Program-made: the position numbers and the translations under genes | Notes under the pieces: model-generated | What the model saw: only the letters and a program-made list of their open reading frames with translations | Database searches by the model: none | What the model was told of the DNA's origin: nothing | Shown here: positions 13,578-24,266 of the stretch, one piece after another | How the letters are laid out: each line of letters opens with the position of its first letter | Numbering within the stretch: position 1 is the stretch's first letter | Source: Clostridia bacterium | Lineage (GTDB): Bacteria > Bacillota > Clostridia > Christensenellales > Borkfalkiaceae | NCBI GenBank assembly: GCA_017408045.1 | Contig: JAFQVL010000063.1 | Coordinates: 69,568 to 103,364 of the forward strand | Length of the DNA stretch: 33,797 bases | Direction: 5' to 3'

Positions 13578-13769
13578 GTGAATTGCCTAGCGGCGTGAAT
13601 TGTTGTAGGACAACGTGAAATGACTTGCGGCGCAAGTCGTGAAAAGCAAGGCTTTGCCTTGCGTTGTGGAACATTCAATAACGACCGTTATAACGGTCAA
13701 TTCACAAAAACGCAGTTTTTAATTCACGACGGTTTACCGTCAATTCACGCGCGGTATCGCGCAATTCAC
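13578..13769. repeat. palindrome array with GTGAATTG-type repeats, between eda and kdgK
   Basis: The left half has the repeat in direct orientation: GTGAATTG at 13578 and 13595, variants GTGAAATG at 13615 and GTGAAAAG at 13639. The right half has it inverted, with AATTCAC at 13699, 13721, 13742 and 13763. Most units are separated by a different hairpin: GTTGT-AGG-ACAAC, ACTTGC-GGC-GCAAGT, GCAAGGC-TTT-GCCTTGC, the perfect palindrome GACCGTTATAACGGTC, AAAAAC-GCA-GTTTTT, GACGGT-TT-ACCGTC and GCGCG-GTAT-CGCGC. No gene lies inside. It has the same design as the arms at 23684-24266. Confidence 0.9.
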
Positions 13770-23683: not shown

Positions 23684-23775
23684 GTGAATTGATTTGTTTT
23701 ACAAATCGTGAATTGAAATCTATGATTTCGTGAATTGACGGCAAAGCCGTCGTGAATTGCACCGCTAAGCGGTGC
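23684..23775 (+). repeat. left arm, direct GTGAATTG units with hairpin spacers
   Basis: GTGAATTG occurs perfectly at 23684, 23708, 23730 and 23752, a period of 22-24. The spacers are self-complementary and differ from one another: ATTTGT-TTT-ACAAAT, AAATC-TAT-GATTT, ACGGC-AAA-GCCGT and GCACCGC-TAA-GCGGTGC. Confidence 0.95.
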
Positions 23776-23793
23776 GTTGAGAAAAAAAAATAC

Positions 23794-24147
23794 ATGAAAT
23801 CCGTCTTATTAGAAAACGCGAAAAAATTTGCAATACATATCGTAAAAATCTGTCAAGTTATACAGACGGAACGACATGAAACAACGATTGTAAAGCAATT
23901 ATTACGCAGTGGTACGAGCATTGGCGCGAATATTCACGAGGCAAACTATGCAAGTAGTAAATCAGATTTCGTAAATAAGTTGCAAATAGCATTGAAAGAA
24001 TGCTATGAAACTGAGTATTGGTTGGAGTTGTTTTACGAAACAGAATATCTACAACGAGAGGAATATCAACACTTGATTGCGGAGAGTAATAAAATAAGAA
24101 TTATGCTTGCTTCTTCGATAAGAACGACAAAAGCGAGCGTACAATAA
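23794..24147 (+). CDS. four-helix-bundle protein (S23 / 23S rRNA intervening-sequence protein family)
   Basis: From the ATG at 23794 the protein has 117 residues. It carries the family signature QLLRSGTSIGANIHEA at about 36-51 and the helix DFVNKLQIALKECYETEYWLEL near 58-79; the other two helices are at about 5-30 and 88-108. The family forms pentameric four-helix bundles. Some members lie inside 23S rRNA intervening sequences and relatives (Avd) serve diversity-generating retroelements, probably binding nucleic acid. A GTG at 23752 is in frame but is part of the repeat. No strong ribosome binding site is seen. The gene is more A/T-rich than fhs and glnS on either side, and it lies between inverted repeat arms. 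Confidence 0.9.
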   Translation: MKSVLLENAKKFAIHIVKICQVIQTERHETTIVKQLLRSGTSIGANIHEANYASSKSDFVNKLQIALKECYETEYWLELFYETEYLQREEYQHLIAESNKIRIMLASSIRTTKASVQ

Positions 24148-24156
24148 TTCCACAAC

Positions 24157-24266
24157 GATTTTTCAAGAGAAAAATCAATTCACGAAAACCAAAGGTTTTC
24201 AATTCACGTAAGGCTTGCCTTACAATTCACGCCGTTAGGCAATTCACTTTACAGTAGGCAATTCAC
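24157..24266 (+). repeat. right arm, inverted AATTCAC units with hairpin spacers
   Basis: AATTCAC occurs at 24177, 24201, 24224, 24241 and 24260. Hairpins are GATTTTTC-AAGA-GAAAAATC, GAAAACC-AAA-GGTTTTC, GTAAGGC-TT-GCCTTAC and the short GCC-GTTA-GGC. The last two units carry similar tails (TTTACAGTAGGC and TTCATAGTAGGT). The glnS start codon is 16 bases beyond. Confidence 0.93.

Follow-up and report, generated by a model that had tools for sequence, protein, structure and literature searches.

An S23 gene between inverted, hairpin-spaced word arrays in Clostridia points to a previously undescribed type of repeat element

Introduction

Among the closest described relatives of the element reported here are the intervening sequences (IVSs) of 23S rRNA in Coxiella and Leptospira, in which, as here, an S23 gene (encoding S23p) lies between inverted arms (PMC4990558). 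The Coxiella IVS is also reported to carry tandem heptamers (GACAGAT) just 5' of its ORF, comparable to the short repeated words described below, and RNase III excises its arms from the RNA (PMC4990558). A further relative of the S23 protein is Avd of the diversity-generating retroelements (DGRs; 4DWL, 8UBE), which shares the S23 fold (TM about 0.8) and acts as the nucleic-acid-binding partner in a solved DGR complex.

Several dispersed repeats also bear comparison. The REP/BIME repeats and their RAYT partners (PMC3733652) resemble the present element in their dispersed, inverted units of word plus palindrome and in a gene flanked by repeats. Tandem 7-nt units like those found here are known as dispersed heptamers, namely TAACTGA in Beggiatoaceae, cyanobacteria and Bacteroidetes (PMC4679880) and GGGAATC in Xanthomonas, where inverted convergent pairs are common (PMC4692102); both were published without a link to S23, and for the Xanthomonas and Beggiatoaceae repeats the mechanism is not known. 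Finally, Gut-1 (Rfam RF01706) was described from gut metagenomes as a non-coding RNA standing on its own (PMC2864571). A search of the open-access PMC full text, the literature covered, found no link between S23 and repeat arrays.

The S23 block of the window

The window analysed here is the whole stretch of 33,797 nucleotides (contig JAFQVL010000063.1, positions 69,568 to 103,364; assembly GCA_017408045.1) from a Clostridia bacterium of the family Borkfalkiaceae, whose genome, designated G000, is 81% complete. Its S23 block lies in the intergenic gap between fhs and glnS (Table 1); these gene names, like the aldolase-like and pfkB-type designations, are our reading of the ORFs. The ORF at the centre, which begins with ATG, matches PF05635 (E 2e-26; 92.6 bits against a curated cut-off of 33.8) and TIGR02436 (E 8e-31; 106.5 bits against a curated cut-off of 24). 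Its AF2 model has four helices (pLDDT 95), and Foldseek matched this model to the S23 structures 2rld and 2gsc and then to Avd (4dwl). With both cut-offs passed and a fold that fits, the protein is a member of the S23/23S rRNA IVP family. Identity to Avd is about 14%, and no template or variable repeats were noted in the near flanks read.

Table 1. Coordinates of the repeat features in the window
Feature	Coordinates	Strand	Detail or basis
Left arm, 4 x GTGAATTG	23684..23774	+	words 23684-23691, 23708-23715, 23730-23737, 23752-23759
Left-arm palindromes, all different, one after each word	23692-23707, 23716-23729, 23738-23751, 23760-23774	+	sequence read
Left core motif CGTTGAG	23775..23781	+	corresponds to CGTTnnGGAA of gene-less copies (comparison of 18 host-genome stretches)
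S23/23S rRNA IVP-family gene (four-helix bundle of 117 aa)	23794..24147	+	profiles, AF2, Foldseek
Right core motif TTCCACAACG	24148..24157	+	corresponds to TTCCnnAACG of gene-less copies (same comparison)
Core hairpin ATTTTTC AAGA GAAAAAT, adjoining first inverted word	24158..24175	+	sequence and fold
Right arm, 5 x inverted CAATTCAC	24176..24266	-	words 24176-24183, 24200-24207, 24223-24230, 24240-24247, 24259-24266
Right-arm spacers	24184-24199, 24208-24222 (palindromic); 24231-24239 (short); 24248-24258 (not palindromic)	-	
Gene-less two-armed copy, partly decayed	13578..13769	.	between KDPG-aldolase-like gene and pfkB-type kinase gene

The word GTGAATTG occurs 14 times in the window against 1.3 expected, a count that none of 100 shuffles reached. 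An initial annotation, made from the window's letters, had described four direct GTGAATTG units, each followed by a distinct palindrome, and this description holds, as all four left spacers are palindromic and differ in sequence. It had also placed the five inverted words of the right arm between palindromes; the five words and two clear palindromes are there, but the spacer gccgttagg is very short and tttacagtagg is not palindromic. The whole block folds better than shuffled sequences (z -7.3 as DNA, -5.8 as RNA), with words pairing across the arms and hairpins branching off, as in the proposed branched stem around the gene. The block structure is thus real, and it proves to be one case of a broader pattern.

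The view of the block as an intergenic relative of the IVSs likewise agrees with its anatomy, an S23 gene between inverted arms, and with its fhs-glnS location. Unlike an IVS, however, the element is not inserted in an rRNA gene, its arms are built of words plus hairpins, and gene-less copies of it are dispersed through the genome.

Gene-less copies, gain and loss

In the host genome, pairs of GTGAATTG in tandem number 57 and are spread over about 18 places (reversed control pattern, 0); with a single detected S23 gene, about 17 gene-less arrays exist besides the S23 block. Most are two-armed and a few are single arms. The usual plan of the copies fetched is three to four word-plus-hairpin units, CGTTnnGGAA, about 25 AT-rich bases, TTCCnnAACG, and three to four inverted units; the window's S23 copy has these core motifs in common with the gene-less copies and carries the gene in place of their AT-rich stretch. 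Two copies (L022, L023) are almost identical and have different flanks. When folded, a copy forms a ladder of word stems that bears one hairpin on each side. The gene-less copy within the window (DNA fold z -7.6) was missing from the initial annotation; among relatives with comparable aldolase and kinase genes it is present in G000 only, and the closest relative, G013, has an unrelated repeat at the aldolase-pfkB gap.

Across the genus, tandem GTGAATTG-type pairs occur in 20 of 57 genomes, with 1 to 144 pairs where present. An S23 gene with GTGAATTG arms was found in five species, every time in the fhs-glnS gap, and its presence there is therefore either inherited or site-restricted. Among about 50 genomes compared at this gap, the majority lack both gene and arms, a single word survives in G025 and in G050, and G015 and G028 have partial arms; gaps without the element or with remnants of it thus exist, as the initial annotation had proposed to look for, but an exact empty site is not demonstrable in the relatives compared because their flanks are too diverged. 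The two sites compared support a dispersed family of arms with gain and loss. The suggestion of a mobile element therefore stands in part: the arms are dispersed, gained and lost, but the gene-bearing copy was not seen to move, lying in the same gap in all five species. Within the genus, several findings weigh against a partnership of S23 and arrays. No S23 gene was detected in G015 (93% complete, 92 pairs) or in G013 (82% complete, 144 pairs). In G031 an S23 gene with arms is present, yet the genome contains no exact tandem pair, and the association between arrays and GTGAATTG-type S23 is no more than marginal (p 0.047).

Two further features of these gaps were observed. In the fhs-glnS element of G011 (L069, left part 1225-1430), one arm comprises ten words in strict alternation of ccaactgtgttggc and aaaacggagttttc, which looks like a recent unit expansion. 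A second dispersed intergenic repeat (gcgtcgcaatactgcgtcgaacttgcgttt...cttgtcttgctcgcatctccgcc-like), for which no S23 link was seen, is present in the fhs-glnS gaps of G013, G030, G033, G035, G044, G048, G049, G052 and G053, and also in the aldolase-pfkB gap of G013 (L222).

Because the gene-less copies are short, dispersed and bounded by inverted ends, they match the description of MITEs, and a transposase or recombinase might move them in trans, with S23 as accessory or passenger. Their terminal inverted arms and near-identical copies in unrelated flanks speak for such an origin, as do the array-rich genomes without detected S23 and the many copies at contig ends in G070, a genome with another word (see below). 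Yet we consider it improbable: no transposase linked to the arrays came to light in a survey that covered Y1 (PF01797), inspection by eye of the copies fetched from G000 and G070 showed no clear target-site duplication, and the same kind of arms at S23 genes in other phyla would be left unexplained. Y1 has no match in the 81% complete G000; Y1 genes are also absent in G015 and do not track array content, so that Y1 was rejected as the mobiliser. The element likewise departs from the REP/RAYT systems, as its partner is S23 and not a Y1 (IS200/IS605-type) transposase, and it bears no GTAG/CGTC tag, the place of which is taken by GTGAATTG or other clade-specific words of about 7-8 nt.

The arrays might alternatively be host regulatory sites, that is, operators or mRNA ends under S23 control that are functionally kept and immobile. 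Many copies do adjoin terminators or gene starts, and the Beggiatoaceae heptamers, located 5' of start codons, were proposed to be regulatory (PMC4679880). The lack of conservation of the two compared sites across related species, the range from 0 to 144 pairs within one genus, and near-identical copies in unrelated flanks nevertheless make this a very unlikely account.

Words and S23 clades in Clostridia

Many other S23 genes within the genus are accompanied by arrays of a different word, and the pattern extends to other Clostridia. A collection of S23 flanks, which the initial annotation had called for, revealed flanking arrays of a significantly recurring 7-mer at 68 of 80 S23 loci, against 15 of 132 control stretches of the same loci, with words mostly spaced by small hairpins. 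Of the two observations that it had named as counting against its interpretation, neither applies completely: armless S23 genes make up a minority of the sampled loci, and the site is not fixed across relatives. The word classes are few (RTGAATTG, RTGAAAT, GTGAAGT, GTGATAT, GTGATGT, AGTTATA, GTTATGA and GCTAAAT) and they follow the protein phylogeny, since word labels on a 106-protein tree require 22 changes against 69.6 when shuffled, with none of 200 shuffles as low. In a constrained tree, one clade accommodates the 24 TGAATTG/ATGATTT proteins, among them that of the window. This tree was better than a first one, in which the protein of the window had a long branch and fell outside the clade of its word.

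Dispersed cognate words show the same correspondence. GTGAAGT pairs number 53, 25, 34 and 9 in the four genomes with that S23 word and 0-13 in 16 others, and for GCTAAAT the four genomes with that word have 16, 19, 8 and 44 pairs, against 0-4 in most of the rest; reversed-pattern controls for GTGAATTG, GTGAAGT and GCTAAAT gave 0-3. The exceptions for GCTAAAT are G070 (115 pairs) and G072 (34 pairs), of which the former would be explained by one array (L254) that is followed by the apparent start of an S23 ORF. Linked inheritance alone could produce the match of word and clade, which therefore supports recognition without proving it; given this link, binding of the arms by the S23 protein is plausible.

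Among the individual loci, four G070 copies (L252, L255, L258, L259) directly adjoin one terminator-like hairpin, gcggtgtacttc...gaagtacaccgc, possibly a target preference, and at L269 (G057) and L270 (G058) the array occurs again 3' of the S23 gene, with extra direct copies. Phage carriage was considered as a main route of spread and set aside, because S23 lies on viral contigs at three loci only.

The comparison of words also brings in Gut-1. Its Rfam model, three UGAAAU-hairpin units in tandem, matches one arm of the GTGAAAT class, and many of its matches occur as plus-then-minus pairs about 20 bp apart; the published RNA stands alone, whereas here two inverted arms lie beside S23 and are symmetric at the DNA level. 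For window-type arms Rfam yielded no convincing match, and the RF01706 covariance model gave none up to E 1 (L021 and five other copies). G000 itself also contains 16 Gut-1-like arms, some as plus/minus pairs (C50:305-479, C27:13257-13433); a second S23 gene was not detected in this 81% complete genome.

Hairpins and the folded strand

Over all related arrays collected, perfect hairpins of at least 4 bp occupy 332 of 562 spacers (shuffled mean, 17). Their loop class turns with the word: C(TNY)G occurs 167 times and its reverse-complement class 19 times, and for C(TNNC)G the corresponding counts are 72 and 0. Left arms, right arms and the dispersed copies all show this orientation. On the CAATTCAC strand the loops read cGNAg and cGNNAg, which are unusually stable in DNA. 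Mismatches in word-anchored hairpins, read in word orientation, are few (G.T 1, A.C 14) and agree with the loops. A general sense-strand hairpin scan (G.T 55, A.C 29) had pointed to RNA, a reading that was reversed when word-anchored hairpins alone were counted; the assignment of the strand therefore draws on few mismatches and chiefly on the loops. Both the orientation of the loops and the bias of the mismatches speak for DNA hairpins formed by the CAATTCAC strand, and each strand would then fold in its own 3' arm, as expected of a symmetric DNA element. Since the loops follow word orientation in both arms, single-stranded DNA is suggested rather than one RNA.

An RNA-level element is the chief competitor of this interpretation. 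The arms would be transcribed as a branched RNA, either bound by S23, as Avd is with DGR RNA, or processed by RNase III like an IVS; they would serve autoregulation or RNA-based spread, with the dispersed copies acting as leaders or small RNAs. Published precedent is on its side (Gut-1 as a non-coding RNA, Avd in the DGR ribonucleoprotein, and RNase III cleavage of the Coxiella IVS arms; PMC4990558), both arms are 5' of the S23 start codon in many loci, and the window block folds well as RNA too. We nevertheless regard it as rather unlikely. In both arms the loop class and the mismatches switch along with the word, and the two arms therefore differ on any one transcript. The tetraloops are GNNA with GNRA and GNYA equally frequent, and thus without GNRA preference, and UNCG is absent; the copies, moreover, are symmetric and occur in either orientation.

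S23 arrays in other phyla

Among Bacteroidota, S23 was detected in 90 of 118 genomes, with up to 16 matches per genome and a few with stops. The recurring-7-mer test failed for most Bacteroidota flanks, and a period analysis then disclosed degenerate heptamers: period 7 was best in 20.5 of 30 flanks, with controls scattered across all periods, and inverted complementarity was found in 22 of 30 against 1 of 30 controls. As this analysis was chosen after the Bacteroidota flanks had been read, 12 plasmid loci fetched later (cyanobacteria, Treponema, Bernardetia and a chloroflexote; four phyla) served as a fresh test, in which period 7 was best in 11 of 12 and inverted arms were significant in 11 of 12. 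The Nostoc S23 arms, for example, consist of AATTCGT x4 and ACGAATT x4. In Bacteroidota, cyanobacteria, the spirochaete and the chloroflexote, the inverted arrays are head-to-tail heptamers with hairpins absent, and the hairpin arms of Clostridia are thus a lineage variant of something broader.

Dispersal was also seen outside Clostridia. The plasmid pAfl69 has heptamer runs at 12 places in the 6.4 kb around S23, 10 of the 12 with the outer-arm word; the Euhalothece plasmid has no dispersed copies within the 41 kb read. On plasmids of Anabaena, Planktothrix, Ca. Chlorohelix and Pseudanabaena (L310, L312, L313, L315), S23 and its heptamer arms are flanked by, or adjacent to, defence-type genes, including cas1/cas2, DISARM/BREX, and helicase and methylase genes; S23 in cas loci has been reported previously (PMC3936711).

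A proposed mechanism

In several phyla, inverted arrays of a word of about 7 nt enclose or adjoin S23 genes, and in Clostridia the words are mostly spaced by small hairpins. For three words the word tracks the protein clade, with gene-less arrays of the same word scattered and varying between relatives. We propose, with a probability of roughly 0.55, that these are two-armed repeat elements in which the arms have S23 as their word-specific partner and gene-less arrays are derivatives; the closeness of the S23 fold to that of Avd speaks for this proposal. Against it weigh the array-rich genomes without a detected S23 (G013, G015), the marginal association within the genus, and the search for a target-site duplication and for a mobilising enzyme, neither of which was recognised. 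Recognition, strand and manner of spread we infer as follows. The S23 protein, a five-membered ring of four-helix bundles in solved relatives, would bind the word array as single-stranded DNA, with hairpins looped out and words aligned as in the hairpin-free phyla. Such binding might then let the arms anneal or copy into new sites and lengthen, perhaps at replication forks and with host enzymes, which is the weakest step. The gene-bearing copy would be the source, and gene-less copies non-autonomous derivatives able to outlive it.

Matching arrays in several phyla, together with scattered gene-less copies, point to an undescribed kind of repeat element. It is tempting to go further, although here we are decidedly tentative, and to envisage S23 as the centre of a cross-phylum repeat class in which a non-enzymatic ring protein reads a clade-specific single-stranded DNA word of about 7 bases and spreads inverted arrays through host enzymes only, a scheme that might also account for Gut-1, the rRNA IVSs and at least some heptamers of cyanobacteria, Beggiatoaceae and Xanthomonas. 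Three puzzles, namely what the widespread S23/IVP family does, what Gut-1 is and where dispersed heptamers come from, would then fall under a common hypothesis in which each S23 has its own word. If true, this hypothesis would predict a protein-word recognition code and would suggest a repeat element that itself carries no recombinase.
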